A DNA stretch of 38,440 nt from a virus: positions 1-38,440 of IMG/VR virus record IMGVR_UViG_3300037336_000213. One strand, written 5' to 3'. Within the stretch, counting starts at the first letter, position 1; each line of letters starts with the position of its first letter. The position numbers and the translations under genes are program-made. Under the pieces are notes generated by a model that was not told where the DNA came from, did not search any database, and saw nothing but the letters and a program-made list of their open reading frames with translations. Positions 20,706-35,444 of the stretch are shown piece by piece.

Positions 20706-21830
20706 ATGGCAACATTACAAGATACAAATATTAACGATACTGGGTTTATAACAATGCCAGCAGGCAATAACGCTCAACGTCCTACTGCAACTACAGGAAT
20801 GCTAAGATATAATAGTCAATCAGCAGACGCTTTAGAGTTTTATGACGGAACTAATTGGAGACCTGTAACAGGTATTAGTAAAGGAGCTATCGGTACAGGT
20901 GGCCAAAGCATTACATACGGCAATGGCGGCATAATGCATATGTTCACTACAGTTGGAAGTCATACATTTACACCTACTTTTAGCGGCACAGTACAAGTAC
21001 TAGTTGTTGCAGGCGGCGGCGGATCAGGATTCGACTGGGCCGGTGGTGGTGGCGGCGGCGGCATGATTTTTAATAGATCAGTATCAGTATCAGCCGGTAC
21101 GGGGGTTGGAGTAACTGTTGGCGGTGGTGGTGCGAGAGGCCCAGGTTGGAGCCAAGGAGCACCTAACGGAGGCAATAGTGTATTTGGTAATATTACAGCG
21201 AACGGCGGCGGCGGCAGTGGCTGCTGGGGACATCCACCAAGTGGACGAGCTCTAGAAAGCTGGACTGGACGTGACGGAGGTTCGGGCGGTGGCGGCGGAA
21301 ACACCGGAGACGGCTTAGATAGTAGACAACGAGTTAGAGAAGGTGACGGTATTACAGGACAAGGCTTCCCAGGCGGAAGTGGAGTAAGATTTAATCAGTC
21401 AAATGAAAACACACACAGTAGTGGAGGTGGCGGCGGAGCAGGTGCTCGAGGCAGAGATAGCTCAGACTATACTCAAAGCGATCAAGATTCTCAAAACGGA
21501 GGAGCCGGAGCAGCAACATCAATACTAGGACCAACACTATACTTTGGTGGTGGTGGCGGTGGTGGAGCTCACCTAGGTGCCGGACAAGTTGGCGGTGCTG
21601 GAGGCATCGGTGGTGGTGGAGGTGGCGGCATTTACCACGGTAGTTCATACAGACCTGGCGATCCATATTTTGGACGCGGTGGAGGCCAAAGTTTAAACGA
21701 TGGACAGCAATCAGCAGCATACTTTAACAGAGCCGACGGCGGTGCAGGCGGTGCTAATTCAGGCGGTGCAGGTGGAGGCGGCCAGTATGGTAATGCTGGC
21801 GGTAGTGGTGTAGTAATAGTTAGATATTAA
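20706..21830 (+). CDS. Glycine-rich adhesin-like tail-fibre protein 3
   Basis: A 374-residue third paralogue with MPAGNNAQRP, TNWRPVTGISKG, HTFTPTFSGTVQVLVVAGGG, GQGFPGGSGVRFN, LYFGGGGGGG and a closing GSGVVIVRY. Its loops carry more acidic and Gln/Asn residues than the other two. The RBS AAGGAA precedes the ATG. The TAA stop shares the tetranucleotide TTAA with the stop of the convergent gene on the other strand, marking the end of the fibre operon and the start of the enzyme island. Confidence 0.75.
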   Translation: MATLQDTNINDTGFITMPAGNNAQRPTATTGMLRYNSQSADALEFYDGTNWRPVTGISKGAIGTGGQSITYGNGGIMHMFTTVGSHTFTPTFSGTVQVLVVAGGGGSGFDWAGGGGGGGMIFNRSVSVSAGTGVGVTVGGGGARGPGWSQGAPNGGNSVFGNITANGGGGSGCWGHPPSGRALESWTGRDGGSGGGGGNTGDGLDSRQRVREGDGITGQGFPGGSGVRFNQSNENTHSSGGGGGAGARGRDSSDYTQSDQDSQNGGAGAATSILGPTLYFGGGGGGGAHLGAGQVGGAGGIGGGGGGGIYHGSSYRPGDPYFGRGGGQSLNDGQQSAAYFNRADGGAGGANSGGAGGGGQYGNAGGSGVVIVRY

Positions 21831-22537
21831 TTTTTCTTAATATCACTATATGATTTATATCTTTCTTTTAACGGACGATTTAGATCAGCATTTCTTATAT
21901 CGTTACATATAATTATTTCTTTCCAAGGCGTAGCAGCAGTTTGCAATTTGACATTATCATCTGCTAAAAATTTAAAATAACAAAGCGCATCTCCTTTTTT
22001 AATTGATATGCGTTCTTGTTTATTCTTAACTTCAAATACTAGTTCAACCGGCCTTACCCATTTATTAATATCATATTCACCAGGCACAGTAGTAGCCTTA
22101 TTTGTAAAATCATTGTAATGTAAAAATGCCGGTAGGGTTTGTAACATTAATGATTGGCCACAAGTGAACGTATTCAAAAGGTCTAATCCTATAATAGGAT
22201 ATGGGCTTATTCCTCTTTCGTCTTTTTCTAAAAATCTAATGTCGACCATCAAGTTAAAAAACTCTTGATCTACATTGTCGCAATATACATTACTATAAGT
22301 TTGATTTACATCAATATCGATATTTAAGTCTATAGGACTTTTAAAAACCCAAGTATTTTGAAACGTATCAGTTACAGCCGGGCACCTCATAAAAGTTGCA
22401 CCTTTTCTACTTGTAGCAATTTCCTTAGTTAGTTTAGAAAACGGATTATAATCAACAGGTAAAAACTTTTTAATATGATCAGGCAAATCAACAGTAAGTT
22501 CGTGTCCAGTAGAAAATGAATGGTTTACAATTGTCAT
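21827..22537 (-). CDS. Uncharacterised protein flanking a halogenase (copy A)
   Basis: A 236-residue protein with no assigned function. Residues 25-70 contain FLPVDYNPFSKL, then FMRCPAV..T..NTWVFKSPIDL, a pattern also seen in the gene at 24003 (NQFFPSWFKKLP, MKGCVG...TTGFVMPLWSDL). The two are probably remote homologues. The middle holds a hydrophobic strand (FTCGQSLMLQTLPAFLHY) and the end a strand-rich RISIKKGDALCYFKFLAD. The shape may correspond to an uncharacterised domain such as DUF6065, a weak impression. Its ATG overlaps the halogenase stop as ATGA, so it is translated as the last gene of a three-gene minus-strand operon. A substrate-handling or partner role for the halogenase is inference from context. 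Confidence 0.65.
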   Translation of the reverse strand: MTIVNHSFSTGHELTVDLPDHIKKFLPVDYNPFSKLTKEIATSRKGATFMRCPAVTDTFQNTWVFKSPIDLNIDIDVNQTYSNVYCDNVDQEFFNLMVDIRFLEKDERGISPYPIIGLDLLNTFTCGQSLMLQTLPAFLHYNDFTNKATTVPGEYDINKWVRPVELVFEVKNKQERISIKKGDALCYFKFLADDNVKLQTAATPWKEIIICNDIRNADLNRPLKERYKSYSDIKKN

Positions 22538-24006
22538 TTTAAATTAAACTGTTCCCTAAGTCTATCAATTTCTGCACTATGAATTACTCCGTGTAAAGAT
22601 TTATATTTTTCTTTTAGAATATACTCCTCAATGAGAATGAGACGAGCATCTTCTTTTGTAAAATTTGTGTTTCTTTCTGCTATTTTAAAATCCATCTGAG
22701 CTAGCCACGTTGTCCAGTTTGTACCAATAAACATACTGTTCCAATGACCATCATACGGAAGAGGTTGATCCGGATCTTTCATTCTATTAATATAATGTTC
22801 CATTCGATCTGTAATATAAAATTTTGATTTTACAAAATTCCAAAAAGGCGTGTCACGTTTGTTTTCAAAATAATGCATACTAACAAAATCTGCACAATCT
22901 TCATAGATTATAGACAGCTGTAGGTTAAAGAAATCTATATCTAATTGAGTTACATATTCTTCTCTAATAGCATTGCATAATTTTGTAATACCGGCAGTAA
23001 TCATTCCAACTCCGGTACTTTCTAGTGGTTCTATAAATCCAGAACTTAACCCTATGGATACTCTATTCCCTTCCCACATATCTTTATAATAATAAGGAGA
23101 CCAGTCTAGTACTTTTAACTGATCTTTAGAAATTCTATAGTCCCAGTATTTGCAAAAATATTCCTTTGCTTCTTCAACATCAGTAACATCTTTATTAAAA
23201 ACTAACCCACTACCGATTCTACTAGAAACAGGAATATTCCAAATCCATCCGTGATCTACCGCTTCACTTATTACATATGGATGTAACTCTTTTTCTCTAT
23301 CGTTGTAAGGGATATGTCCTGCAATAGCAGCATTGCAAAATAACTGATCAAACTCAACACGCTTTTTAGGAGTGCCTAATATGTTTTTCCATCCAGTACA
23401 ATCTACAAATATATCTCCTTTAATACACATACCGTTTTCAAGATCAAGTGATGATATTATATTATCATCATCCATATTAACTTTCAAAACATCAGACTGT
23501 ATAAAAGTTATTTTATTTTTTAATTTTGTATGAGCGTAATGTACTAACTTGCCACAATCTATATGAAATGCGTATGACTCTAAGTCACGCATACTAACTT
23601 TGTTTTCTAATGATAATTCATAAAAGGCACTTGCATATGTTGCAAACGGTAAGTCTTGATTTTGAGTCCATAAGTCTTGCAATCTTATTCCTGTTTGCTC
23701 GTCTATGATTGTAGGACGTTTATAAAATGGGTGCCATATGTCTTTCCCCGTCTCCTGCCAATTAGCAAACAATATTGAAGATTTATATGTAGCATCAGTA
23801 TTAACCATCCATTCCTGCTTTGGAAATCCACACTCGTCTAAAAATGGGCCTAAATTTAATAACGTCCCTTCTCCTACGCCTACTGTTGAAGGAACAATTT
23901 TATCAATTAATGTTATTTTTAATTGCGGCATTTGTGCAGACAAATATGAAGCAGTTAGCCAACCAGAAGTTCCGCCCCCTACTATTACTATTGATTGTAT
24001 TTTCAT
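22534..24006 (-). CDS. Flavin-dependent tryptophan-halogenase family protein (A)
   Basis: A 490-residue member of the tryptophan halogenase family (Trp_halogenase). FAD-binding GGGTSGW is at residues 10-16 and VGVGEGT at 42-48. Lys75 in ATYKSSI aligns with the catalytic Lys that carries the hypohalous acid equivalent in PrnA/RebH. The signature WIWNIP is at 254-259 and EPLEST at 326-331, where the second Glu aligns with the PrnA/RebH catalytic Glu. Length is near the family norm. These enzymes use FADH2, O2 and halide to halogenate an electron-rich aromatic; the substrate is unknown and need not be free Trp. It is the middle gene of an operon with two related unknown proteins, overlapping both by ATGA. 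No reductase is nearby. Confidence 0.92.
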   Translation of the reverse strand: MKIQSIVIVGGGTSGWLTASYLSAQMPQLKITLIDKIVPSTVGVGEGTLLNLGPFLDECGFPKQEWMVNTDATYKSSILFANWQETGKDIWHPFYKRPTIIDEQTGIRLQDLWTQNQDLPFATYASAFYELSLENKVSMRDLESYAFHIDCGKLVHYAHTKLKNKITFIQSDVLKVNMDDDNIISSLDLENGMCIKGDIFVDCTGWKNILGTPKKRVEFDQLFCNAAIAGHIPYNDREKELHPYVISEAVDHGWIWNIPVSSRIGSGLVFNKDVTDVEEAKEYFCKYWDYRISKDQLKVLDWSPYYYKDMWEGNRVSIGLSSGFIEPLESTGVGMITAGITKLCNAIREEYVTQLDIDFFNLQLSIIYEDCADFVSMHYFENKRDTPFWNFVKSKFYITDRMEHYINRMKDPDQPLPYDGHWNSMFIGTNWTTWLAQMDFKIAERNTNFTKEDARLILIEEYILKEKYKSLHGVIHSAEIDRLREQFNLK

Positions 24007-24758
24007 TTAATATCCTTTGGAGTTATTATACTGGTTTTTGAATTTTCTTTCGCTTCACGTATGCGTCTAGATTCTTTGTACCCGTTTACAAAAAACGGAA
24101 AACTATTATTGTTCATAACTCTCATTAATTCATTAGGTCCTACTACGTGTAATTTAAGTTCAACGTTGTGTTCAGTTATAGGCATCAAATGTACCATTGG
24201 TCTGCCTGCGGCAAAATCATATCTTTGACCTTTTCTAAGTAGCATATTAATATGCGATGTGTGTTGATATTTATATTCAACCATTCCGGGCGGGGTATGT
24301 TGTGTCATTATATCTCTAGGATGACTCCAAGGCAATCCTGTATATAAAAAATTAATTCCGCTTTTTTCTCGAATTCTCCAAGGACTAATAAGTTTAATAT
24401 GTGTATATTGGGCAAACTCTGTTCCTAACTGATCTAAGCTGTGAAATCCTATTTCACTTGTATTGTCAGCATATTGATAACTATAATTTTGTCCGTGTGT
24501 TTGTAATACTAGGTCGCTCCACAACGGCATAACAAACCCTGTAGTATACAAGTTAGTTAACCCAACACACCCTTTCATTGTTCGTTGCTTAATAGGAACA
24601 CCAGCACTACTTTCGACTTCAGTTGTACTAGGTAATTTTTTAAACCACGATGGAAAAAATTGGTTAGCTCGATCTATCGGAAATAAATCGTATGCAGTTG
24701 TATTTGCAGTAAAACAGTCTACAGTTATTGTTTTTCGTCGAGTAAAGAAATCAAACAT
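24003..24758 (-). CDS. Uncharacterised protein flanking a halogenase (copy B)
   Basis: A 251-residue protein from the ATG at 24758, which has AGGA nine bases upstream. A GTG at 24791 would add 11 residues but overlaps the putative promoter. The pattern NQFFPSWFKKLP (32-43), then MKGCVG.....TTGFVMPLWSDL, and later GMVEYKYQHTSHIN and RYDFAAGRPMVHLMP, resembles the layout of the gene at 21827; the two appear to be remote homologues. Several His and aromatic residues are present but no known catalytic motif. First gene of the three-gene minus-strand operon, joined to the halogenase by an ATGA overlap. Function unknown; association with halogenation is inferred from this coupling. Confidence 0.65.
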   Translation of the reverse strand: MFDFFTRRKTITVDCFTANTTAYDLFPIDRANQFFPSWFKKLPSTTEVESSAGVPIKQRTMKGCVGLTNLYTTGFVMPLWSDLVLQTHGQNYSYQYADNTSEIGFHSLDQLGTEFAQYTHIKLISPWRIREKSGINFLYTGLPWSHPRDIMTQHTPPGMVEYKYQHTSHINMLLRKGQRYDFAAGRPMVHLMPITEHNVELKLHVVGPNELMRVMNNNSFPFFVNGYKESRRIREAKENSKTSIITPKDIK

Positions 24759-24781
24759 TGAATAGATCCTATTAATAAAAA

Positions 24782-24789
24782 TACTTATC
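24782..24789 (-). promoter_or_regulatory. Putative late promoter (GATAAGTA, minus strand)
   Basis: Read on the minus strand the octamer is GATAAGTA, 23 bases before the ATG at 24758, with an AGGA ribosome site between. It would drive the three-gene halogenase A operon. Confidence 0.5.
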
Positions 24790-24818
24790 ACTATTTAACA
24801 TTGCAGTACTGTGGTCTT

Positions 24819-24826
24819 GGTAAATA
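24819..24826 (+). promoter_or_regulatory. Possible late-type promoter (GGTAAATA)
   Basis: GGTAAATA ends 8 bases before the ATG at 24835, and the same octamer occurs at 38001 before another gene. If the start of transcription lies about 6 bases downstream, as in T4 late promoters, the message would be nearly leaderless. Weak match. Confidence 0.3.
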
Positions 24827-24834
24827 TCTGTGTG

Positions 24835-25419
24835 ATGATAATTAAAGACGATTTTTTAAAACTAGACGATTTTTTAAAACTACAGGAATTTGTATTGTCA
24901 AATGAGTTCCCTTGGTTTTATTCAGACAGGGTTTCGTTGCCGCCAGATGAATACAATATCATTGATGATGCTGCAAGAGAAACTGATGGATTTTATCATT
25001 TACTATACGCCGCTGATGATAACAGTAATCAGAGCGCATATATGAAATATTTTCAACCCTTTTTTGAAAATTTAACTCAAGAGTTTGGGTATACCAGTGA
25101 CTCGTTAATACGAGCAAGATTGGGTCTAAAAATGCCCAATGTTAATCACAAAATAGAAAATTATAATTTGCCGCACATAGACTACCATTTCCCTCACGAT
25201 ACTATAATTTTCTATTTAAATACCAGCGATGGTAATACTAGAATGTTTGACCAGTATGGTGAGGAAAATAAAGAAACTTCAAAATTTACGGTAAAGGAAG
25301 AAATTGAACCTATACAAAATAGATTGTTATTATTTAACGGCCTTCAATATCATACTGCTAGTAATCCGATAACCTCTAGTAGACGTATAGTATTAAATTT
25401 AAATTTAAAATGCAAGTAG
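24835..25419 (+). CDS. 2-oxoglutarate/Fe(II) oxygenase-like protein (1)
   Basis: A 194-residue protein of the double-stranded beta-helix oxygenase type. The facial triad is H114 and D116 in PHIDY, with H173 in QYHT. Arg183/184 in SSRRIVLN is placed to bind the 2OG carboxylate. It is a clear paralogue of the 217-residue gene at 29334 (PHIDY, FNG..YH, NPI..S.RIVLN). The ATG at 24835 was preferred to GTG 24811 because homology begins at IIKDDF; no Shine-Dalgarno is seen. Near the N-terminus DDFLKL is repeated by an 18-base tandem duplication. The last ten bases overlap the next oxygenase gene. Likely a hydroxylase; the substrate is unknown. Confidence 0.82.
   Translation: MIIKDDFLKLDDFLKLQEFVLSNEFPWFYSDRVSLPPDEYNIIDDAARETDGFYHLLYAADDNSNQSAYMKYFQPFFENLTQEFGYTSDSLIRARLGLKMPNVNHKIENYNLPHIDYHFPHDTIIFYLNTSDGNTRMFDQYGEENKETSKFTVKEEIEPIQNRLLLFNGLQYHTASNPITSSRRIVLNLNLKCK
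24847..24882 (+). repeat. Perfect 18-base in-frame tandem duplication
   Basis: Copies 24847-24864 and 24865-24882 are identical (gacgattttttaaaacta) and encode DDFLKL twice at residues 5-16 of the oxygenase. This looks like a recent slippage or duplication; the paralogue at 29334 lacks it. Confidence 0.95.
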
Positions 25420-26027
25420 AAAATATATTTCCTAATCCTATACTAAAGTTTTCAATAGATTCAGAATCTATTGAACGTAGTCTTGTAATTGCAAAGGACT
25501 ATGCAAAAGAAGTAAATTGGTTTGAAGCAGAACATTACGGCCAGTCGTTAACTTCTTTTTTTAGTGATGGATCTAGAAATTATTTAGGTATCAAAGACCC
25601 AAATCTAGCACACGAAATAATAAATGCTGCAAGATGTTATCTTGATAGTATAGCGTGGCACAAAGACGCAGATTTAGTAATGGAAAGTTGGTTAAATCTA
25701 AATCCTTACAGTACTTGGCACGGTGCTCACGAACATTTTGATTCTTTGATGAGCGGAGTAGTTTGGCTGCAAACAAATCAAGACAGCGGAGCACACTTTG
25801 TTTTTATAGAACCTAATAGTGTAAAAACACAAATATTTCTTCAATATAGTGACGTCAAAATTAAAGATAACGAATTTAACAGAAGTACATATACTATTAA
25901 TCCTAAATCAGGTGAAGGCGTAATTTTTCCATCCTGGATGAGGCACCAAGTATTACCTAATAAATCAAAAGAACATAGATATAGTATTGCATTTAATATA
26001 TGGATTGATAAAAATGGCAAAAATTGA
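25410..26027 (+). CDS. Putative 2OG-Fe(II) oxygenase, HxH family (2)
   Basis: A 205-residue protein resembling the family of putative 2OG-Fe(II) oxygenases with N-terminal 'FP.P' (IFPNPILKF) and a H.H.....SGV.[YW] core (PF13759/TIGR02466-like). Here H107-E-H109 precedes SLMSGVVWL, with distal H179 in WMRHQV and R190 in the EHRYSIAFN strand. The usual HxD pair is replaced by HxH, as in its two paralogues at 26014 and 28717. It overlaps oxygenase 1 by ten bases and oxygenase 3 by fourteen, so the plus-strand genes from 24835 to 27223 form a four-oxygenase operon. The substrate is unknown. Confidence 0.8.
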   Translation: MQVENIFPNPILKFSIDSESIERSLVIAKDYAKEVNWFEAEHYGQSLTSFFSDGSRNYLGIKDPNLAHEIINAARCYLDSIAWHKDADLVMESWLNLNPYSTWHGAHEHFDSLMSGVVWLQTNQDSGAHFVFIEPNSVKTQIFLQYSDVKIKDNEFNRSTYTINPKSGEGVIFPSWMRHQVLPNKSKEHRYSIAFNIWIDKNGKN

Positions 26028-26601
26028 ACTATGGTTCCCTACAATAATATATTCTGAAGAAGATTTATTTTCAAACATCACCAATGAAAAATGGGCAAAT
26101 TCTCTATTTGAAATAGAAAAAACTGTTAAATCTGGTGGAGAAGATTGGGAGGGGAAAACATACACTACTCATACTACATACGAGCTTGCTTCCGATAACA
26201 CCTTTAATAGTTTAATTGAAACTATTACACAGCACGTAAATGGATTAGCAGCTCAATATGGATCAACCGTAAAATATAAAGTAGACGGTGCTTGGGCAAA
26301 TATAGCTAGAGAAGGAAATTATCAAGAGTATCATACTCACGACGGTAGTGTGTTTAGTGCAGTTTATTATGTTAAAGTACCGGAAGGTTCTGGTAATATT
26401 ATATTTGAAGATCCTAGGATGCCAGATATGCTACCTGTAAAAAATATACCTGAAAGAAATTCTTTAAGTTTTAATAAAATAGGTTACACTCCTGCAGAAG
26501 GAACACTTATAATATTTAGATCATCTCTTCGACATTGTGTACAAGAAGGAACAAACGTCGATCCAAGAATTTCAATATCGATGAATTTTGGCTATGAATA
26601 A
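26014..26601 (+). CDS. Putative 2OG-Fe(II) oxygenase, HxH family (3)
   Basis: A 195-residue protein starting at MAKIELWFPTIIY, the family's usual N-terminus; an in-frame start at 25987 would add nine unconserved residues. It has H107-T-H109 in YHTHDGS, then VFSAVYYVKVP, distal H174 in LRHCV and R185 in PRISISMNF. It is a paralogue of the genes at 25410 and especially 28717, which shares the YY.KVP..SGNI.F stretch. The 14-base overlap with the upstream gene and 8-base overlap with the next indicate coupled translation. Likely oxygenase; metal ligation by the second His is untested. Confidence 0.8.
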   Translation: MAKIELWFPTIIYSEEDLFSNITNEKWANSLFEIEKTVKSGGEDWEGKTYTTHTTYELASDNTFNSLIETITQHVNGLAAQYGSTVKYKVDGAWANIAREGNYQEYHTHDGSVFSAVYYVKVPEGSGNIIFEDPRMPDMLPVKNIPERNSLSFNKIGYTPAEGTLIIFRSSLRHCVQEGTNVDPRISISMNFGYE

Positions 26602-27223
26602 TTTATTTGATATAAATTCATTATCTGATAATGTAACTGTAAAAGTTGTAAACAATACTAAGATTTATATAAAAGATAACTTTTATAAAAATCCCCACAA
26701 AGTAGCAGATTTTATATTATCTCAACCTTGTAATAAATGGAAATCGTGGGAAAGCCCATCTTACAACGGAACACACTTTTTAGATCAACGGCACGATTTT
26801 TATGATGAGAGGATGATACTAGTTTCTGCTGAAATAGAAAAATTGTGTAATGAAAAAGTAGCACAACCTACTCAAGTAGTAACAAACTGTATGACATTTT
26901 ATGATAAACTATTTAATAATTATAACGACAATTACTGGGGGCCGCACAGTGATTTAGGATATACTGCATTAATTTATTTAAATTTAGAAACCTGCGAAGG
27001 AACTAATTTTTATGAACAATTAGTTGACGATCCGTGGCCTACTCCGGAACACTATGAACCTTGGAGATTAAAAAGTAGATATAAATTAATTGACACTGTA
27101 GAGTCTAAATTTAATAGAATGGTATTATTTAATGGAGCAAAACTTCAGCACGGTATGAGTATAAATTCTGATTTATTTTTTAACAAACTTCGAATAAATC
27201 AAGCTATCTTTTTAACTCCGTAA
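26594..27223 (+). CDS. 2-oxoglutarate/Fe(II) oxygenase-like protein (4)
   Basis: A 209-residue protein beginning MNNLFDINSL; a TTG two codons earlier is less likely. The triad is H118 and D120 in GPHSD and H186 in KLQHGM, with R200 in LRINQAIFL as the likely 2OG anchor and FNGAKLQH comparable to FNG..YH of oxygenases 1 and 6. The N-terminal half (IYIKDNFYKNPHKVADFIL) is typical of phage proteins of this superfamily. It ends the four-oxygenase operon. Its last 25 bases are antisense to the end of halogenase B. The reaction is probably hydroxylation; the target is unknown. Confidence 0.75.
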   Translation: MNNLFDINSLSDNVTVKVVNNTKIYIKDNFYKNPHKVADFILSQPCNKWKSWESPSYNGTHFLDQRHDFYDERMILVSAEIEKLCNEKVAQPTQVVTNCMTFYDKLFNNYNDNYWGPHSDLGYTALIYLNLETCEGTNFYEQLVDDPWPTPEHYEPWRLKSRYKLIDTVESKFNRMVLFNGAKLQHGMSINSDLFFNKLRINQAIFLTP

Positions 27224-28686
27224 AGCTCTTTAATATAATTTATAAATTGACTATGTGTAACTAATGGCGTTTGCTCATCATAACTCATAGATTCTGCTAA
27301 CACATTAATTGCATTATTTTTAATCCAAGGATGCATCATATTAAATTCAGATTCTATAGAAGCTTGATCAAAAAGTTTAAGCCCGTTTAATACGTGTATG
27401 TGATGAGTTTGATTAAATAATGCATATTTGGTAATACCTCGAAAATCATCTTCAATTGGTAAATTATGCTTCCAGCGTTCTAATTTTTCTGCGAGACTAT
27501 CTGGTATTGGCATTGATTGAATGTCTTTCCAAAAATTAGAATTATTCTTTTTAGTAAGATAATGCATTATAACAAAGTCTCGAATATTTGTCATAATGTC
27601 ATTTATGTCTTTATTATAATCATTAATAGTTGTTTGATTGTAATTAGGAAGCCTATGCATTAGTAAAAATATTTGTTGTATTGAAGTTCCTATAGATGTT
27701 GCTTCTAATGGTTCTACAAAGTTTGCACTTAGGCCAACAGCACAACAGTTATTAATCCATACCTTGTCTAAACAGCCTGGAGTGAAATTAATTTTTCTAG
27801 CAACTTCGATATCTTTATTAAAAAATTTATCAATTTCGTCTTTTGCTTGATCTGCTGTTATATAATCGCTATCAAAAATATAACCGTTACCAGTTCTAGT
27901 TTGTACAGGAATACTAAACATCCAACCGTAGTCCATAGTTTGTGCTATTGTCCACAGAGGGTAATTATCTAACGATTCAGTAGGAAACATAATAGCAGAC
28001 TTCATTTTTAAATACTTGTCATAAGACTTCCAAGATGCACCTAGTTTTGATATTAATATTTTTCTAAACCCAGTACAGTCTATAAAGAAGTCAGCAGTGT
28101 ACGACGACTTCTCGCCAGCTAACGAAATTATATTACCATTATCGTTTATTATAGCATCTACAATTATATCATCTATTACTGTAATACCTTTGTTAATCGC
28201 AACTTTAACTAAAAAATCGTTAAGTTTATTTGTATCAAAATGATATTGATTATACGGTGCGGCTGCACTAGGATCAGTAGCTTGCCAAGTTGGTATTCTA
28301 GAATACCAAGTACGCTTTGGATTCATATTACTACAAGGTTGTTTACTAGACATAATATGACCATACACATATGGATATTGTCCGTTAGATATGTCATAGT
28401 CTGGGCTAGTACTGTGTAAATAATCTTCGCTGCCCCATCCACGAAACATAATTCCGGATTTAAATGTAGCATTACATTCTAAAATTACGTCTCTCCAAGA
28501 AACACCGATATAATTCATAAATTCAGACCAGTGTTCAGTTGATCCTTCACCGACTCCAACAATTCCTATATCTGTTGATCTAACAACTTCAATATTGATA
28601 TGGGGAAACCTAGTTTTTAAAATTAGAGCAGAAACAAACCCAGCTGTTCCGCCGCCTGCAACACATATTTTATTCAATTTATTCAT
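27199..28686 (-). CDS. Flavin-dependent tryptophan-halogenase family protein (B)
   Basis: A 495-residue halogenase-family protein. GGGTAGF is at 11-17, VGVGEGS at 43-49, Lys76 in ATFKSGI fits the catalytic Lys position, and EPLEAT is at 325-330. The signature at 255-260 reads WMFSIP, so the second Trp of WxWxIP is Phe; this also occurs in protein D. The motif is thought to disfavour monooxygenase chemistry, so the change may affect flavin reactivity or be neutral. It is monocistronic on the minus strand, divergent from oxygenase 5 across only 30 bases and convergent with oxygenase 4. The ribosome site before the ATG is weak. Substrate unknown. Confidence 0.9.
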   Translation of the reverse strand: MNKLNKICVAGGGTAGFVSALILKTRFPHINIEVVRSTDIGIVGVGEGSTEHWSEFMNYIGVSWRDVILECNATFKSGIMFRGWGSEDYLHSTSPDYDISNGQYPYVYGHIMSSKQPCSNMNPKRTWYSRIPTWQATDPSAAAPYNQYHFDTNKLNDFLVKVAINKGITVIDDIIVDAIINDNGNIISLAGEKSSYTADFFIDCTGFRKILISKLGASWKSYDKYLKMKSAIMFPTESLDNYPLWTIAQTMDYGWMFSIPVQTRTGNGYIFDSDYITADQAKDEIDKFFNKDIEVARKINFTPGCLDKVWINNCCAVGLSANFVEPLEATSIGTSIQQIFLLMHRLPNYNQTTINDYNKDINDIMTNIRDFVIMHYLTKKNNSNFWKDIQSMPIPDSLAEKLERWKHNLPIEDDFRGITKYALFNQTHHIHVLNGLKLFDQASIESEFNMMHPWIKNNAINVLAESMSYDEQTPLVTHSQFINYIKELYGVKKIA

Positions 28687-28703: not shown

Positions 28704-28711
28704 TATAAGTA
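28704..28711 (+). promoter_or_regulatory. Putative late promoter (TATAAGTA)
   Basis: TATAAGTA ends five bases before the ATG of oxygenase 5 at 28717 and matches the T4 late octamer at seven positions. The same octamer precedes genes at 33392 and 38034. Its closeness predicts transcription starting at or beside the ATG. Confidence 0.5.
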
Positions 28712-28716
28712 TTAGT

Positions 28717-29337
28717 ATGACATCAATTACTGAACATCAATTATTTGTATCATCTTGTTATAGTACTTATCTTGACTTGCCTATCAATGAACAGTTAACT
28801 GATATTGTAACTAGTCTTAAAGAATCTGTAGAAAGTAATCAATTTAGTAACCAAGGAGGGTGGCAATCAAAACCTTATCAGTTTTCGGATGTAGATAATA
28901 TAGTTATTATGGATCTATTTGCAAAAGTAATTACACCTATGGCTCAAAAAATTATCGACAGTTGGAATTATCCTGTAGAACTATCTAGTTATAGCTACTG
29001 GTATAATGCTAATCAAAAATATAATTACAACACAAATCATTCGCATCCTGAATCATATATTAGCGGAGTGTATTATATTAAGGTTCCATCCAATAGTGGC
29101 AACATTGTTTTTAGTAGAGCAGAATCTGAAACTGAGAGAATGTACTTTCAAACAAAAGAAATAATGGATAAGTTGTTATCTGTTAATGATTCTAGAGTTA
29201 ATACCGAACACTGGTTTACTCCCAAGGAAGGAATGTTATTGCTATTTCCAGGGCACCTTAAGCATACAGTTGAACAAAATTTATCAGAAGAGATAGACTC
29301 TACAAGAATTTCAATGAGTTTTAATTTTAATAATTAA
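28717..29337 (+). CDS. Putative 2OG-Fe(II) oxygenase, HxH family (5)
   Basis: A 206-residue paralogue of the proteins at 25410 and 26014. It shows NHSHPESYISGVYYIKVP with H108 and H110, distal H183 in LKHTV, and R197 in TRISMSFNF. The ATG at 28717 was chosen over GTG 28699 because the latter lies upstream of the promoter-like octamer. No Shine-Dalgarno precedes either. It is divergent from halogenase B and shares its stop tetranucleotide TTAA with the convergent oxygenase 6. Compared with the other two family members it has a longer loop (residues 134-165) before the distal strand. Substrate unknown. Confidence 0.8.
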   Translation: MTSITEHQLFVSSCYSTYLDLPINEQLTDIVTSLKESVESNQFSNQGGWQSKPYQFSDVDNIVIMDLFAKVITPMAQKIIDSWNYPVELSSYSYWYNANQKYNYNTNHSHPESYISGVYYIKVPSNSGNIVFSRAESETERMYFQTKEIMDKLLSVNDSRVNTEHWFTPKEGMLLLFPGHLKHTVEQNLSEEIDSTRISMSFNFNN

Positions 29338-29987
29338 TGTTCTAAAAAATCAAAGTTTAATACAATACGTGAGCTGTGATTGATTGGAAAATTTCCACTA
29401 TGATACCTGTGCCCATTAAAAATTAATGCTTCTCCTTTTTTAGGAGTATGTCGATATACTTCTGTAATCTTTTCATTTAACACAGGATTGTACACATCTG
29501 TTTGAGGATTAAACATTTTATCAAATAAAATAGTATCACCGTCTGCATCGTTTACATAATATATCAATGTAGTGTAGTCGCTATTGTTTGGGTAGTCTAT
29601 GTGAGGGGCAGCATATTTTGTACTATTGTGTCCGGGACTTGGACTTGTATATCTTGCACGTATTCTAAAAATTTGATCTATAGTTTTGCCTGTCTTTTCA
29701 CAATAAAATTCTAAAATCATTCTAAAAAAATCATAATGTGCAGATCTAATTTCGGCATCGTCTTGTATGATATGAAAAAACCCAGAATCGTCTGTTACAT
29801 TAGGATCTATGTAAATATCTTTTTGATCAGCAGTGAAGTAATCTTTATGACCAATTTTATGTAATAGAAACCAAGGAAAAAAGTTTTCACCCTGCATACG
29901 ATCAATTATAGCGTTTTGATAAGAAACTGGAATAATATCTTTTATCATATGAATTTCTTCCGCAACGTGTTTAATTTTGTAGGTCAT
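29334..29987 (-). CDS. 2-oxoglutarate/Fe(II) oxygenase-like protein (6)
   Basis: A 217-residue oxygenase-like protein, paralogous to oxygenase 1: PWFLLHK, DSGFFHII, H129 and D131 in PHIDY, DADGDTILFD, H196 in HRYHSGN and R207 in SRIVLNFDF. The ATG at 29987 overlaps the stop of halogenase C as ATGA, which supports this start over the internal Met14. The pair is a minus-strand two-gene operon behind the strong promoter at 31557-31564. Being coupled to a halogenase suggests the two act on the same or a sequential substrate; this is inference. Confidence 0.82.
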   Translation of the reverse strand: MTYKIKHVAEEIHMIKDIIPVSYQNAIIDRMQGENFFPWFLLHKIGHKDYFTADQKDIYIDPNVTDDSGFFHIIQDDAEIRSAHYDFFRMILEFYCEKTGKTIDQIFRIRARYTSPSPGHNSTKYAAPHIDYPNNSDYTTLIYYVNDADGDTILFDKMFNPQTDVYNPVLNEKITEVYRHTPKKGEALIFNGHRYHSGNFPINHSSRIVLNFDFLEH

Positions 29988-31522
29988 TGTGTATCTCTTT
30001 CTTCTCTAAAAAATGTAATCATTTCTTCCCAAGTATAGTGATTTTGTAATTCCTCATACCACTCGGTGTGATATGCTACATAATCATTTTGCACAACATT
30101 TTTTAAATTATCTACATTCGGTATCTTTAAGTCTAACTCTTTATCAGTAACATCTTTATTAATAAGATTTATACCCTCCATAACGTAACTATACAGAGGC
30201 CATCCTGCACTACCGTAGTATGTTGGAAAGTCGTGATGTGTAGGCATTCGAGTTTTTGACATTTCAATTAAATTTGATACAAATTCTGGTTTAGGTACGT
30301 TATCCTTTATGTTACGCCAAAAAGCAGTGTCAGTTCTTCCTCCACAATAATGCATAGTAATAAAGTCTCTAAGATCATCAAACATTTTTCTAGTTCGTTG
30401 ATTATAGATATTCATTGAACCTTGATTTAGTGTATCATTGATATTATCTCTAACATAATCAAATGCAAGATTTTTAATTTGCACTACTGTAGAATGAATA
30501 CTAGTTGCTTCTAGCGGCTCTAAAAATGCAGATGATAGCCCTATAGTAACACAGTTATTAATCCAAGCTGATTCCTGGCGACCGGTAGTAAATTTAATTG
30601 TTTTTGCTGGCGTTATCTTTTTACCTAATTGAGCCTCTATTTCTGCTTGTGCTTCTTGTTCTGTAATATACGCATCGTCATACACATAGCCGCAACCTTT
30701 TCTATCAAGTAATGGAATTTGCCACATCCATCCTGCGTTCTGTGCCCAAGCTGTAGTGTAAGGTTCGGGAAATTCCCCGTCTTCGTATTTTAATATAAAT
30801 GGCATTGCAGAGTTTACAGGTAGATGATCCATATAACTTACCCAATCATTACCGGGCATTTTTTTCATTAATAATCTTGATAGTCCTGAACAGTCAATAA
30901 ACAAATCACCTTCAATTTTTTGACCGTCTTCTAAAATAATATTTTTTATGTAACTATTTTCGTCTAACTCTGCATCAACAACAAGAGCATCAATTAACGA
31001 AGCATTAGGGTTACGTAGTGTTACTTTTTGAAAATACTTGCCTACTAAATGTGCATCAACGTGCATTGCGTGGGTTATACTAGAGAAATTATTTGTAGTT
31101 TTATCAAAATTACTCATACCTTTAGCAATCCAATTTCCAATTCTCGATGTTTTAATTAAATCTTTTCGACTTAACGAACTAACACCGTTTGCAAATTGTA
31201 CATCTGGAGTATGCATTTTAGTAATGCTACCGTCGATAGGACCTATATAATAGTCATCAGTATCAGACGTCCACCCTTTGAATTTAATTCCATACTTTAA
31301 TGAAGCTCCAGTTTCTTTAACAAATTCATTATGATCGCATCCAAAGTCCCAAAGATGGTTCGTTAATAAATCGGTCAATAATCCAGTAGTGCTTTCTCCT
31401 ACTCCTATTACGCCAATGGCTGATGATTCAACTAATGTTATTTTATGATTAGGGTGTCTTGACGACATTAATAACGCTGTCATCCATCCGGCAGTGCCGC
31501 CGCCAACAATTATAATATGCAT
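29984..31522 (-). CDS. Flavin-dependent tryptophan-halogenase family protein (C)
   Basis: A 512-residue halogenase with the most complete motif set: GGGTAGW at 7-13, GVGEST at 40-45, catalytic-position Lys76 in SLKYGIKF, the canonical WMWQIP at 265-270 and EPLEAT at 335-340. FAD-linked strands IEGDLFIDCSGL (about 204-214) are also typical. The ATG has GGAG nine bases upstream and a perfect TATAAATA octamer 35 bases upstream. It is co-transcribed with oxygenase 6. The usual reaction would be FADH2-, O2- and halide-dependent aromatic halogenation. Marine phage halogenases of this family are known (cyanophage VirX1), so the family is not new; the setting is unusual. Confidence 0.92.
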   Translation of the reverse strand: MHIIIVGGGTAGWMTALLMSSRHPNHKITLVESSAIGVIGVGESTTGLLTDLLTNHLWDFGCDHNEFVKETGASLKYGIKFKGWTSDTDDYYIGPIDGSITKMHTPDVQFANGVSSLSRKDLIKTSRIGNWIAKGMSNFDKTTNNFSSITHAMHVDAHLVGKYFQKVTLRNPNASLIDALVVDAELDENSYIKNIILEDGQKIEGDLFIDCSGLSRLLMKKMPGNDWVSYMDHLPVNSAMPFILKYEDGEFPEPYTTAWAQNAGWMWQIPLLDRKGCGYVYDDAYITEQEAQAEIEAQLGKKITPAKTIKFTTGRQESAWINNCVTIGLSSAFLEPLEATSIHSTVVQIKNLAFDYVRDNINDTLNQGSMNIYNQRTRKMFDDLRDFITMHYCGGRTDTAFWRNIKDNVPKPEFVSNLIEMSKTRMPTHHDFPTYYGSAGWPLYSYVMEGINLINKDVTDKELDLKIPNVDNLKNVVQNDYVAYHTEWYEELQNHYTWEEMITFFREERDTQ

Positions 31523-31548: not shown

Positions 31549-31556
31549 GATAAATA
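31549..31556 (+). promoter_or_regulatory. Putative late promoter, plus half of bidirectional palindrome (GATAAATA)
   Basis: GATAAATA lies 33 bases before the ATG of oxygenase 7 at 31590. It forms one arm of the 14-base perfect palindrome ataaatatatttat at 31550-31563. Confidence 0.6.
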
Positions 31557-31564
31557 TATTTATA
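31557..31564 (-). promoter_or_regulatory. Putative late promoter, minus half of bidirectional palindrome (TATAAATA)
   Basis: On the minus strand this is exactly TATAAATA, the T4 late consensus, 35 bases before the ATG of halogenase C at 31522. It abuts the plus-strand octamer head to head. Confidence 0.7.
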
Positions 31565-31589: not shown

Positions 31590-32180
31590 ATGTCATTTAT
31601 AGAAACTACATTTTTAAACGATTTAACAATTTGTGATAAGTTGATTGCATATTTTCTAGATAATGATAGTCGTCATTGCCGTCCTAAACATTTCTTAAAC
31701 GGAAAAAGCGTAGAAGCAGCACCTGAATATAAACAATCAACTGACGTAGCTGTAGTAAACGATAATATGTTAGAGTGTCCTGCAATTGGTGACTATTTAG
31801 ATGAATTAGATTTAGCTACAACCAATTATGTATCTAAATGGCCACCTTGTAACGCATATGCTCCTTGGTCAATAACAACAGCATTTAATATACAATATTA
31901 TAAACCTGGAGAAGGATTTAATTCTTGGCATACAGAACGATGTAGTGCTAATAAAATAGCATCAACTAGACACTTAGTTTTTATGACATATCTCAATACA
32001 GTTAGTGACGGTGGAGGTACAGAATTCTTAAATCAAAATATTACTATTAACGCCGCAAAAGGCAAAACAGTAATATGGCCAGCAGACTGGACACATACAC
32101 ACAAAGGAGTAATATCTCCTACTGAAGATAAATTTATTATTACAGGTTGGTTTAACTATACCACAGAGGACTCTAAATGA
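31590..32180 (+). CDS. 2-oxoglutarate/Fe(II) oxygenase-like protein with HxE triad (7)
   Basis: A 196-residue protein with the jelly-roll core FNSWHTERC (H114, E116), HLVFMTYLN, GGGTEFLNQ and WPADWTHTH (H169 likely distal ligand), followed by ISPTEDKFIITGWF. The acidic ligand is Glu rather than the common Asp, and the 2OG anchor position appears to be Lys181 in place of Arg. Related proteins occur in marine phages, so both may be family traits. It is divergent from halogenase C under the bidirectional promoter. Its stop overlaps the ATG of halogenase-like D by ATGA. Oxygenase activity is likely but less certain than for proteins with a standard triad. Confidence 0.75.
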   Translation: MSFIETTFLNDLTICDKLIAYFLDNDSRHCRPKHFLNGKSVEAAPEYKQSTDVAVVNDNMLECPAIGDYLDELDLATTNYVSKWPPCNAYAPWSITTAFNIQYYKPGEGFNSWHTERCSANKIASTRHLVFMTYLNTVSDGGGTEFLNQNITINAAKGKTVIWPADWTHTHKGVISPTEDKFIITGWFNYTTEDSK

Positions 32181-33352
32181 AAATCGCAGTAATAGGATCA
32201 GGCACAGCCGGAATACTATCTTTAGCACATTGCTTATCATTCTTTCCAAAAGAATATAATATAACTTCTATTTACGATCCCGATATTCCAATGCTAGGAA
32301 TAGGCGAAAGTACATCAACACAAATTCCGTTAACATTATTTTATGCGACTGGACTAAATCTTTTAGATATGCCAGATGAATTAGATATGACTATAAAACA
32401 CGGAGTAAAATACGTAAATTGGAGGGCGGAAGACTTTTTTACAAAAATTCCACCGCCCTTTTATGCAATGCATTTTAACAACTTTTCTTTAAAAACTTTT
32501 GCATTTAAGCAGTTTAAACAAAAATGGAAAACTAGATTTAATGTTATAGAAGGCGAAATTAATAATGTTGTTGATTTTAATGACAAAGTTACTATAACAA
32601 TGTCAAATAAAGATTTACATCAATATGACTATGTTATTGACTGTAGGGGATTCCCTCAAGATTCTACAGAACACATTCCGGTTACAACCATACCAGTTAA
32701 CCATTGTTTAGTTAATACAATAGATGCACCGGGCGATTGGAATTACACATATCATCAAGCAACTAAAAATGGATGGATGTTTGGTATACCTCTTCAAACT
32801 AGACAAGGATGGGGATATTTGTATAACGACACTATAACAACAAAGGACGAAGCTGTTGCTGATATAGCAGATATTTTTAATACTAGTCCAGACAAGCTGA
32901 CATTGCGAGAATTTTCTTTTAAAAATTACAAAGCAAAGAAATTTATTAATGGCAGAATAATAAAAAATGGTAATATGGCATTATTTTACGAACCAATTGA
33001 AGCACTAAGTGGATGGTTTTATGATAATATTTTACGAGCATTTTTTGATGTTGTAGTTACTCAAAGTATGACCGAAGATGATGCAAATAGATATTTACAT
33101 AATTTAGCTGACGAATACGAAACATTTATATGCTATATGTATCACGGAGGATCTGTATTTGATTCAAAGTTTTGGAATATTACTTCTAAAAAATGCAAAG
33201 CAACATTAAATAATAGCAGTATGTTCAAACAACATATTGAAAAACTAAACACAACACAGCTATCATTTGACAACAATCCGTCTATAGTATTTCCTATAGG
33301 TGTTTGGAGAGAGTTAGATAAAAATTTAAAATATCAATATTTAAACATATAG
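32177..33352 (+). CDS. Short, divergent tryptophan-halogenase-like flavoprotein (D)
   Basis: A 391-residue protein with the halogenase-family plan: GSGTAG at 7-12, LGIGEST at 40-46, Lys74 in TIKHGVKYVNW at the catalytic Lys position, CRGF at 156-159, WMFGIP at 200-205 and EPIEAL at 272-277. It is about 100 residues shorter than its three relatives: spacing before the WxWxIP-type motif is cut by about 55 residues and the C-terminal part is also shorter. The EPLEAT/S motif is altered after EP. It may have a smaller substrate pocket, different chemistry, or a degenerate function. It is coupled to oxygenase 7 by ATGA. The frame is intact, arguing against a pseudogene. Confidence 0.8.
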   Translation: MKIAVIGSGTAGILSLAHCLSFFPKEYNITSIYDPDIPMLGIGESTSTQIPLTLFYATGLNLLDMPDELDMTIKHGVKYVNWRAEDFFTKIPPPFYAMHFNNFSLKTFAFKQFKQKWKTRFNVIEGEINNVVDFNDKVTITMSNKDLHQYDYVIDCRGFPQDSTEHIPVTTIPVNHCLVNTIDAPGDWNYTYHQATKNGWMFGIPLQTRQGWGYLYNDTITTKDEAVADIADIFNTSPDKLTLREFSFKNYKAKKFINGRIIKNGNMALFYEPIEALSGWFYDNILRAFFDVVVTQSMTEDDANRYLHNLADEYETFICYMYHGGSVFDSKFWNITSKKCKATLNNSSMFKQHIEKLNTTQLSFDNNPSIVFPIGVWRELDKNLKYQYLNI

Positions 33353-33391: not shown

Positions 33392-33994
33392 ATGGAAACT
33401 ACAGATTTTACAACTAGCCCGCAGGCTAATCCAACAAGTGATATGAAACTAGCAACATTAGAAATTATGTCAATGAATAAAGCTATACTTTTTTCAAAAG
33501 AACAATGTGAAGATATTGTTAATGGGTGTATCGAAGACTTATGGTTAAACACTCGAGTTGTTGGTGATAACCAATTGCATTCTGCACGTCGACAAAAATT
33601 AAAAGGGAATCCTCAAGAGTTTCCTTTCGATCCAATCCGACACATTACTAAACAAGCTAACGATGAAATTTATGATTTTAAACTATTGGGAATTATAGAT
33701 CAAGACTTTCCACAAATATATCAATATAAACAAGATGATTTCTATAAAATGCATATTGATATTAATCCTATGGCAGCAACAAGAAAACTAAGTTTTATTA
33801 TTAATTTAACTAATGCAACCGAATACGAAGGCGGCGAAACAATATTCTTAAATGCTAATACAGATAATAACAATATTAATGAACAAGGCACTCTCCTCGT
33901 ATTTCCTGCGTTTCTGCCTTACGAAATTAAACCAGTAACTAGCGGAGTTAAAAATATTATTATAGGACATATACACGGAGCTGTGTTTAGATGA
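33392..33994 (+). CDS. 2OG-Fe(II) oxygenase-like protein lacking the distal His (8)
   Basis: A 200-residue protein of the prolyl-hydroxylase-like jelly-roll type. H121 and D123 are present in YKMHIDINP, followed by RKLSFIINL and EYEGGETIFL, all standard. Where relatives have an FPS...H.V.PV strand it reads FPAFLPYEIKPV, so Tyr177 stands at the expected distal His. The usual G.R 2OG anchor reads GVKN, with Lys187. Two of the residues needed for iron and 2OG binding therefore appear lost, suggesting an inactive or repurposed partner. It has a strong RBS and its own late promoter; the stop overlaps the start of oxygenase 9 by ATGA. A heteromeric partnership with that neighbour is possible but speculative. 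Confidence 0.75.
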   Translation: METTDFTTSPQANPTSDMKLATLEIMSMNKAILFSKEQCEDIVNGCIEDLWLNTRVVGDNQLHSARRQKLKGNPQEFPFDPIRHITKQANDEIYDFKLLGIIDQDFPQIYQYKQDDFYKMHIDINPMAATRKLSFIINLTNATEYEGGETIFLNANTDNNNINEQGTLLVFPAFLPYEIKPVTSGVKNIIIGHIHGAVFR

Positions 33995-34788
33995 TACTAG
34001 ACAATTATTACTATTACTTTCCCGGAGCATTAAGTGAAAGTATGTGTGATGCTATTATGGAGCAAGGTCTAGAAAAAATGTATCTTGCAAAACAGAAATT
34101 TGGAAAAGATTCAATTGAAGCAACTACAGGTGACTGGCGACAGAAATCAGTAACTTCTCAAACAGAAAAAGCAGTTTCTCTTGCTTCTGATACACTTGAA
34201 ACTATATCTAATCAAGGATCGTCACTTGAAGATATATATGTTAGAGATTCTAATGTTTCTTGGTTAGATGATGATTGGATATATAAGGCTTTATGGCCGT
34301 TTATACACGAAGCTAATAAAAATGCAGGTTGGAATTTTGATTGGGATTTTACTGAAAATATTCAGTTTACAAAATACGGAGTTAACCAATTTTACGGTTG
34401 GCACGCTGACACTGGACCAAAACCATATGAAGAATTTGATCCTGCTGTACATAAAGTTAAATTAGATAAAGACGGTAATCCAGTAATATCTGGTGACGGA
34501 AGTTTTGTTGCTGAAGCACACGAGGCTACAACTGATCCTAAAATGATTGGCAAGATGCGAAAACTAAGTGTTACGGTTAGTTTAAGTGATCCAAAAGATT
34601 ACGACGGTGGCAATTTGAATTTTGATCTCGGGCCGCACCGACCTGACAGATATCACGAATGTACAGAAATACGTCCTCGCGGGTCAATAATTGTATTTCC
34701 TTCGTATGTGTACCATCAAGTAACTCCAGTTACTAGAGGCACTCGTTACAGTTTAGTTGCCTGGAATTTAGGATATCCGTTCAAATGA
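33991..34788 (+). CDS. PKHD-type 2OG-Fe(II) hydroxylase-like protein (9)
   Basis: A 265-residue protein resembling PKHD/PiuC-type hydroxylases. H138 and D140 are in FYGWHAD, KLSVTVSLSDP..YDGG at about 191-207, H242 in YHQVTPV and R252 in GTRYSLVAWN. All ligands and the 2OG Arg are present. An insertion of about 40 polar residues (141-182) follows the HxD pair and probably forms a substrate lid. It overlaps oxygenases 8 and 10 by 4 bases each, giving a tightly coupled operon. Proteins of this kind are widespread in marine T4-like phages, with unknown targets. This is one of the most confident oxygenases here. Confidence 0.88.
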   Translation: MILDNYYYYFPGALSESMCDAIMEQGLEKMYLAKQKFGKDSIEATTGDWRQKSVTSQTEKAVSLASDTLETISNQGSSLEDIYVRDSNVSWLDDDWIYKALWPFIHEANKNAGWNFDWDFTENIQFTKYGVNQFYGWHADTGPKPYEEFDPAVHKVKLDKDGNPVISGDGSFVAEAHEATTDPKMIGKMRKLSVTVSLSDPKDYDGGNLNFDLGPHRPDRYHECTEIRPRGSIIVFPSYVYHQVTPVTRGTRYSLVAWNLGYPFK

Positions 34789-35444
34789 ATAATTCAACTC
34801 TTTTTAAAAATGATTCATATTTAGACTTAAAAGGAATAATTCCTAAAGATATGTGTAATTTAGTATCACAGTATGCATTATTACAAGAACTAGTAACTCC
34901 AAGAAAAGAAGAAGCAGAAGGTCAGGTACCGTTTGCACATTCAGGGTACGGTGACTTATTAATGGAAACATTGATGCTGTTTATGAAGCCACATATGGAA
35001 GCACATACCGGATTGGAGTTGTGCCCGACATATACTTATTTTAGAGTATATCGTCCTGGAATGATACTTGAAAGACATACAGATAGACCAAGTTGCGAGG
35101 TTAGTACTACTGTATGCTTAGGAACTAATTATACAAATGTTAATCGAGACTTTAATTGGGGAATGTACGTTGACAATACGTATAGGCACAATGCTGATGA
35201 TAATGGATTTATTTCAGTTAATAATCCTGGAAAAATGATCACTCAATCACCAGGTGATATTATTGTATATCGAGGTTGTGAAATAGAACATTGGCGCGAA
35301 GAATTTGCTGCCGGTGAAGGAAGCTGGCAAGTACAAGCATTTTTTCATTATATAAATAAAGATGGACCGTATTATCCTGAATTTGCATATGATAAACGTC
35401 CCGGAATAGGCTTTCCGTTGAGACATCCTGCGGAAAAAACATAA
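34785..35444 (+). CDS. 2-oxoglutarate/Fe(II) oxygenase-like protein (10)
   Basis: A 219-residue protein. H98 and D100 lie in ILERHTDRPSCEVS, the distal H169 in EIEHWREEF, with the flanking strand QSPGDIIVYRGC. The region between carries a WGMYVD segment and a polar loop. Instead of a clear Arg after the distal His, the following strand reads SWQVQAFFHY, so 2OG anchoring is uncertain. Similar proteins are common in marine T4-like phages. Third gene of the operon with oxygenases 8 and 9; its stop overlaps the next promoter octamer at 35440. The likely substrate class (protein side chain or small molecule) cannot be told. Confidence 0.78.
   Translation: MNNSTLFKNDSYLDLKGIIPKDMCNLVSQYALLQELVTPRKEEAEGQVPFAHSGYGDLLMETLMLFMKPHMEAHTGLELCPTYTYFRVYRPGMILERHTDRPSCEVSTTVCLGTNYTNVNRDFNWGMYVDNTYRHNADDNGFISVNNPGKMITQSPGDIIVYRGCEIEHWREEFAAGEGSWQVQAFFHYINKDGPYYPEFAYDKRPGIGFPLRHPAEKT

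Follow-up and report, generated by a model that had tools for sequence, protein, structure and literature searches.

A conserved halogenase and oxygenase island between adhesin and chaperone genes of a marine T4-like virus is a candidate tail-fibre maturation locus

We analysed a 38,440-base virus fragment from IMG/VR (record IMGVR_UViG_3300037336_000213), which as a whole is called the window here. At positions 21827-35444 it carries an island of 16 genes that encode four flavin adenine dinucleotide (FAD)-dependent halogenases of the Trp_halogenase family, ten proteins of the 2-oxoglutarate (2OG)-Fe(II) oxygenase type, and two mutually related proteins that we call unkA and unkB. Three glycine-rich adhesin genes form its upstream border and a tail-fibre-assembly chaperone gene its downstream border. 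The island has intact catalytic residues, shows purifying selection, keeps its position in related viruses, and carries late-promoter boxes. We favour, with moderate confidence, the view that it serves a late, virion-directed modification of fibre or adhesin proteins, in preference to a free metabolite pathway. Halogenases and 2OG oxygenases of phages have been described before; an adhesin- and chaperone-bordered island with multiple halogenase paralogues is new, and in the open-licence literature that we searched we came upon no halogenase island linked to genes for adhesins and a chaperone.

Layout of the island

An earlier note on this DNA, made from the letters alone, had described the island as 13.6 kb with no other gene type, placed between fibre genes and a fibre chaperone. 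This description was borne out: the 16 open reading frames (ORFs) are all accounted for, 99.9% of the island is coding (13,599 of 13,618 bases in genes, with overlapping bases counted twice), neighbouring genes overlap or have gaps of at most 67 bases, and the bordering genes match PF21722 (adhesins) and PF16778 (chaperone). Decay of the island genes was considered and rejected, the reading frames being intact and the ratio of nonsynonymous to synonymous substitution rates (dN/dS) low. The genes and promoter boxes, with expectation (E) values, are as follows.

21827-22537, minus strand: unkA, unkB homologue (phrog_17480)
22534-24006, minus: Hal1, FAD-dependent halogenase (PF04820, E 2.6e-85; K75 and E329 invariant in 17 sequences)
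24003-24791, minus: unkB, predicted dUTPase-fold (beta-clip) protein (phrog_7084)
24811-25419, plus: OG1, 2OG-Fe(II) oxygenase (PF13640 below cut-off; H122-D124-H181-R192)
25410-26027, plus: OG2, 2OG oxygenase (PF13759, E 8.3e-21)
25987-26601, plus: OG3, 2OG oxygenase (PF13759, E 4.1e-22; PDB relative 2rg4)
26588-27223, plus: OG4, 2OG-type, DUF6445-like (H120-D122-H188-R202, HSD...H...R, conserved)
27199-28686, minus: Hal2, FAD-dependent halogenase (PF04820, E 2.8e-93)
28699-29337, plus: OG5, 2OG oxygenase (PF13759, E 3e-21)
29334-29987, minus: OG6, 2OG oxygenase (PF13640 below cut-off; H129-D131-H196-R207)
29984-31522, minus: Hal3, FAD-dependent halogenase (PF04820, E 5.6e-101; aligned to PrnA K79 and E346)
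31549-31564, both strands: divergent late-promoter boxes GATAAATA (plus) and TATAAATA (minus), 41 and 42 nt upstream of the OG7 and Hal3 starts
31590-32180, plus: OG7, 2OG oxygenase with HxE...H (PF13640, E 8.2e-10, above cut-off)
32177-33352, plus: Hal4, short divergent FAD-dependent halogenase (PF04820, E 9.3e-33; Lys and Glu retained)
33392-33994, plus: OG8, 2OG fold with the distal His lost (PF13640, E 1.3e-9, above cut-off)
33991-34788, plus: OG9, PiuC-like prolyl-hydroxylase-type oxygenase (PF13640, E 2.2e-12, above cut-off; PiuC 9ghl, E 2e-7)
34785-35444, plus: OG10, probable 2OG-type protein (HTD...H conserved in 17 sequences; no Pfam match)
35440-35447, plus: late-promoter box CATAAATA, 35 nt upstream of the fibre chaperone

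Among these 16 ORFs we found no nonribosomal peptide synthetase, polyketide synthase, or core synthase for ribosomally synthesised and post-translationally modified peptides, no precursor ORF or other pathway gene, no scaffold-making enzyme, no exporter, and no glycosyltransferase or sugar gene. The earlier remark that neither a precursor peptide nor a flavin reductase is visible agrees with our results. The flavin-reductase family PF01613 was not found in 11 related records and was present in 13 of 14 control genomes, so reduced flavin would be derived from the host.

Conservation in related viruses

The earlier note proposed looking for co-occurrence and synteny in related viruses, and here the block proved to be kept. 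The first relatives found were contigs with Hal3 proteins 64-79% identical to that of the window, and a profile search added L109-L115. At least 10 viral contigs besides the window have the island at the same position, with 4-5 halogenases and about 9-13 oxygenases, and each of L109-L115 falls in these ranges. The close relatives are all uncultured fragments and probably include near-duplicates (G001 with G002; G003 with G004 and G005). G003 contains all 16 island genes together with one more halogenase, its fifth, and an additional 349-aa protein, G001 keeps 14 of 16 with the gene order partly rearranged, and G006 has a truncated copy. In the 152.8-kb contig G008, all four halogenases and 11 of the 12 detected oxygenases lie within 18.6 kb (7.5-26.1 kb). 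This concentration in one stretch argues that the island is not a product of chance.

Adhesin and chaperone genes border the island in G001, G003, G008, and G010, which are the contigs with both flanks visible, and the same enzyme order adjoins the chaperone in G006, L109, L110, L112, and L115. Comparison of the window with G001 gave dN/dS values of 0.08-0.29 for island genes with a computable dS (OG7 was saturated, and OG2 and OG6 had no G001 partner), 0.09 for groEL, and 0.11-0.12 for the adhesins. These ratios indicate that the island genes tested are under purifying selection.

Association of viral halogenases with fibre genes

Beyond the closest clade, we also examined viral halogenase loci that span at least 10 kb, fetching 10 kb and using the window fibres as reference. 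A fibre homologue or long glycine-rich protein occurred within 10 kb of 20 of 51 halogenase loci, a lower bound, versus 0 of 32 T4-like helicase loci (Fisher p = 1.1e-5), at distances of 13 to 5,570 bases from the halogenase. Three loci (L120, L132, and L140) share an arrangement in which a long fibre-like gene has two halogenase genes nearby and no 2OG oxygenases were detected. The neighbours in L120 are sugar-nucleotide enzymes (PfkB/cytidylyltransferase and epimerase proteins), and L118, L150, and S-SSM7 encode carbamoyltransferases. The adhesin-chaperone position in every relative with visible flanks, together with this general fibre linkage of viral halogenases, favours a fibre or adhesin target. 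The earlier proposal of a pathway tailoring "residues or metabolites" is therefore retained as to a conserved enzyme island and narrowed as to its target.

Late promoters

Late promoters of cyanomyoviruses have the form NATAAATA (PMC2984593). There are nine sites of this type in the window, and five sit 35-42 nt upstream of a start, those of the second long fibre, OG7, Hal3, the chaperone, and groES. For this placement the binomial p is about 6e-9, with a distance window picked after seeing the data. The exact sequence TATAAATA occurs in the window no more often than chance predicts (4 versus 7.6 expected), leaving placement alone informative, and sigma-70 promoter scans of the window were likewise at chance level (77 versus 74.4). 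The chaperone box recurs in 6 of 6 relative contigs and the groES box in 5 of 6; boxes at Hal3, OG7, or both recur in G001, G003, G006, and G008. The island enzymes and the fibre genes thus look to be co-expressed late, and the boxes at enzyme operons agree with the earlier suggestion of action late in infection.

Halogenases

All four halogenases that the earlier note had recognised match PF04820 (E 9.3e-33 to 5.6e-101), with hidden Markov model (HMM) scores of 114-339 bits against a cut-off of 21, and the two that we compared with solved structures both matched FAD-dependent halogenases. The dinucleotide-binding motif GxGxxG is invariant in 17 phage sequences (G10, G12, and G15 in Hal1 numbering), as are the catalytic Lys and Glu (Hal1 K75 and E329, 17 of 17), whose register with PrnA K79 and E346 was taken from the Hal3 alignment. 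The 17-row alignment yielded no searchable pattern, and narrower alignments were substituted. The WxWxIP motif reads WIWNIP in Hal1 and WMWQIP in Hal3, and its second Trp is Phe in Hal2 (WMFSIP) and Hal4 (WMFGIP). With respect to the Trp-binding residues of PrnA, Hal3 keeps a YY pair aligned with Y443/Y444 and has Pro at position 450, which we take to be Glu in the wild type. Hal1, Hal2, and Hal4 gave no clear alignment over the Y443/Y444/E450 region.

In a maximum-likelihood tree, Hal1, Hal2, Hal3, and Hal4 fall in separate well-supported clades, each containing members from several viruses, and five halogenase clades are kept side by side. On this phylogeny the four halogenases are old, separately maintained paralogues, and their retention next to one another argues for non-redundant roles. 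Recent tandem duplication as their source was rejected by the tree.

2OG-type oxygenases

The earlier count of ten 2OG-Fe(II) oxygenase-like proteins is fair, with nine well supported and OG10 probable from its motif. The facial triad and distal Arg (HxD...H...R) are retained by OG1, OG4, OG6, and OG9. OG1 and OG6 match PF13640 only below its cut-off (E 7e-5 and 1.7e-4) with the motif intact in both, and OG4 is tied to them by HMM cross-matches (E 6e-23 and 1e-31). The PF13759 members OG2, OG3, and OG5 keep an HxH...H...R signature, and OG7 has HxE...H with the matching Arg absent. OG8, which adjoins the PiuC-like OG9, conserves the fold and the first His and lacks the distal His in 13 of 13 aligned sequences; it belongs to the family by HMM and is probably not a canonical enzyme. 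OG10 has HxD...H, and its profile comparison with OG7 and OG9 reached a probability of 2%, short of confidence, so that OG10 stays probable.

By itself, the density of these genes counts for less than the set of halogenases and its placement, because T4-like phages have a high background of 2OG genes (0.99 per 10 kb in the helicase control loci versus 1.94 in halogenase loci). Three PHROG names were rejected on Pfam, HMM, and motif evidence: "DNA endonuclease V" (phrog_274), "minor coat protein" (phrog_1644), and "ferrochelatase" (phrog_2954). These misleading labels fall on the oxygenase-type proteins at 24811-25419, 26588-27223, and 34785-35444, with "ferrochelatase" on OG10. A phage "ferrochelatase" has been paired with 2OG genes in the literature (PMC9599517), and this pairing may rest on such a label.

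unkA and unkB

The relatedness of unkA and unkB that the earlier note had seen was confirmed (HMM E 1.1e-35; hhalign probability 95.9%, E 5.6e-9). The AlphaFold2 (AF2) model of unkB has a predicted local distance difference test score (pLDDT) of 92 and matches the dUTPase 2y8c with Z 11.4 over 126 aligned residues at a root-mean-square deviation of 3.1, so that a dUTPase-like beta-clip fold is predicted with high confidence. The dUTPase family PF00692 was found in only 1 of 48 unkB-type members (E 0.023), and the unkB consensus PGIVxYKYQH is unlike what we take to be the dUTPase catalytic motif. Homologues of unkB adjoin VirX1 in Syn10 and Syn9 and are also present in haloarchaeal HF2-like viruses. 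The unkB-type proteins carry a weak DUF6065 hint, and they form tandem arrays of 2-3 copies (L057, 5836-8002; L058, 5839-7250).

Comparison with known systems

The closest parallel in a cultured phage is the cyanophage Syn10 (HQ634191), the source of the characterised halogenase VirX1 (PDB 6qgm). Its locus runs from two fibres through three glycine-rich proteins, a NATAAATA box, a 164-aa protein, two halogenases (the second being VirX1), and an unkB homologue to about eight oxygenases. Like the window, Syn10 is a T4-like marine phage with a DUF6445-like protein and several 2OG oxygenases in one run. Unlike the window, it has two halogenases rather than four, a single coding strand, and no unkA that we could find, and its proteins are only about 22-38% identical to those of the window. 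In the halogenase tree VirX1 sits on the Hal5 side, which is missing from the window. BLAST of a Syn10 glycine-rich protein against adhesin 1 was not significant, so the likeness there is compositional and by PHROG only. The locus thus exists in cultured phages as well, the window carrying its large form, and Syn10 likely supplies the biological context for VirX1.

The earlier note had called so dense a set unusual. Such sets are less unusual than the note assumed, given the Syn10 locus and published isolates with 10 to 24 2OG oxygenases per genome. S-SCSM1 (24 oxygenases) and S-CREM1 (10 oxygenases and PrnA) are, like the window, T4-like phages rich in PF13640/PF13759 oxygenases; the accessible parts of the papers describing them interpret the oxygenases as host metabolic reprogramming and report no fibre-linked multi-halogenase island (PMC9602691, PMC9964418). 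The pelagiphage HTVC008M resembles the window in having a 2OG run with OG7-, OG9-, and OG10-like proteins adjoining baseplate/fibre genes, as well as the halogenase PrnA, but this halogenase is single and sited elsewhere, between terminase subunits.

Bacterial clusters of Trp_halogenase, SapC, Cupin_8, DUF6445, and TonB-receptor genes also place a halogenase beside 2OG/JmjC-like and DUF6445 proteins and an outer-membrane receptor. They differ in being chromosomal, in having no fibre, and in falling mostly in separate halogenase clades; they are a possible chromosomal parallel of surface-protein modification. Among the bacterial loci scanned, TonB receptors and SapC were frequent neighbours, with Cupin_8 in L219 and DUF6445 in L250.

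Proposed role and alternatives

We propose that the island is expressed late and serves the maturation of tail fibres. The halogenases, running on reduced flavin from host reductases, and the 2OG-Fe(II) hydroxylases would alter side chains of newly made glycine-rich adhesins, of the long fibres with CBM5/12 repeats, or of both. Modification would probably take place on unfolded or chaperone-held protein before it joins the virion, each old paralogue being dedicated to its own site or residue type, and the dUTPase-fold unkA and unkB may be non-catalytic adaptors or substrate-binding partners. The altered surface chemistry could tune receptor binding or protect the fibre. Substrate, modified residues, and benefit are what we infer from gene content and position. 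In the cyanophage Pam3, the glycine-rich domain of the adhesin is bound by the chaperone, which keeps the receptor-facing distal loops covered until maturation (PMC9608196). Enzymes whose genes lie between those of adhesin and chaperone could therefore work on an adhesin that is nascent or chaperone-held. The best PDB match of the AF2 model of adhesin 3 is the Pam3 fibre 7ypx (Z 14.5 over 176 residues). A broader and more tentative idea is that phages halogenate and hydroxylate their own receptor-binding fibres with site-dedicated enzymes acting on adhesin loops or CBM repeats, as a post-translational layer of host recognition of which VirX1 is one member.

Phage halogenases and 2OG oxygenases are classed in the papers that we consulted as auxiliary metabolic genes with guessed roles such as antibiotic protection and nitrogen signalling. 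The fixed adhesin-chaperone position under late promoters makes a specific, testable claim, that the enzymes work on the virion. If this is true, halogenation or hydroxylation of residues would add a new class to the modifications of virions and open a new axis for the evolution of host range, and it would tell us the natural substrate class of VirX1.

Several points weigh against fibre maturation. The island has six strand switches, which is odd for a single late operon. Well-studied FAD-dependent halogenases have small molecules or peptides as substrates. VirX1 itself halogenates many small aromatics (PMC8407142). Some halogenases lie away from fibres, as in S-RIM44 and between the terminase genes of HTVC008M; the fibre-linked loci with sugar-nucleotide or carbamoyl-transfer genes in place of oxygenases fit glycan chemistry too; and recombination in T4-like phages has hot spots in the fibre regions, which means that the adjacency may be neutral.

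The best surviving alternative, which we consider unlikely, is small-molecule tailoring, in which a host or phage-induced metabolite (for example, a tryptophan-derived or cell-surface compound) is made into an antibiotic or signal. The breadth of VirX1 toward small aromatics (PMC8407142), the proposal in the literature of antibiotic production for cyanophage prnA, and the Hal3 YY pair are in keeping with it, but it leaves the fixed adhesin-chaperone position unexplained, the island has no scaffold-making enzyme, precursor ORF, or exporter, and Hal3 has Pro in place of the presumed Glu at PrnA position 450.

Improbable, in our judgement, is that the fibre region is simply a hot spot gathering unrelated oxygenases and halogenases, with a linkage that is recombinational rather than functional. 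Fibre cassettes do recombine (G010 has two), 2OG genes are scattered in T4-like genomes at the control density given above, and gene order in G001 is partly reshuffled. Nevertheless, Hal1-Hal3, unkA, and most oxygenase orthologues stay together across highly diverged viruses, and the G008 island holds all its halogenases and nearly all its oxygenases. Marginally less probable still is surface-glycan chemistry on host-envelope sugars or lipids or on fibre glycans, serving superinfection exclusion or receptor remodelling: the L120 sugar-nucleotide genes with the arrangement common to L120, L132, and L140, the carbamoyltransferases of L118, L150, and S-SSM7, and the TonB receptors and glycoside hydrolases adjoining bacterial relatives speak for it, but no glycosyltransferase or sugar gene lies within the island and FAD-dependent halogenases require electron-rich aromatic or similar carbons.

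Fibre, adhesin and chaperone genes around the island

Genes from 40 to 18477 encode baseplate and fibre proteins of the marine T4-like type. The flanking features are as follows.

4301-10342, plus strand: long tail fibre with CBM5/12 repeats (phrog_9851 tail fibre; PF02839, E 1.7e-36)
10399-17247, plus: second long tail fibre with CBM5/12 repeats (PF02839, E 2.5e-24; its homologues flank the island in related viruses; preceded at 35 nt by a GATAAATA box)
17614-18477, plus: fibre protein with Peptidase_S74 intramolecular chaperone domain (PF13884, E 3.7e-11)
18484-19587, plus: glycine-rich adhesin 1 (PF21722, E 4.7e-12)
19589-20695, plus: glycine-rich adhesin 2 (phrog_2295; aligned with adhesins 1 and 3)
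20706-21830, plus: glycine-rich adhesin 3, adjoining the island (PF21722; AF2 pLDDT 80)
35475-35888, plus: tail fibre assembly chaperone (Phage_tail_APC, PF16778, E 4.1e-16)
35912-35940, no strand assigned: terminator-like hairpin, a 13-bp palindrome, where the chaperone and groEL genes converge
35956-37629, minus: GroEL (PF00118, E 2e-70)
37630-37929, minus: GroES (PF00166; late-promoter box at 37964-37971, minus)

The CBM5/12 (chitin-binding type) repeats of the long fibres (4301-17247) are rich in Trp and Tyr and suggest a carbohydrate receptor; a regular-expression search for Trp repeats in the fibres was uninformative. The three adhesins (18484-21830) are paralogous, and their genes have 51% G+C versus 33-38% in the surroundings, with glycine codons the probable cause. 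A tblastn search with adhesin 3 against isolate phages under default filtering gave no match. GroEL and GroES are both phage-encoded (35956-37929). The record IMGVR_UViG_3300021373_002801 (L355-L358) has two fibre cassettes, at 3694-27781 and 50350-75200, separated by adhesins, island, and groES/EL, and several genes of the second cassette are 76-92% identical to those of the window.

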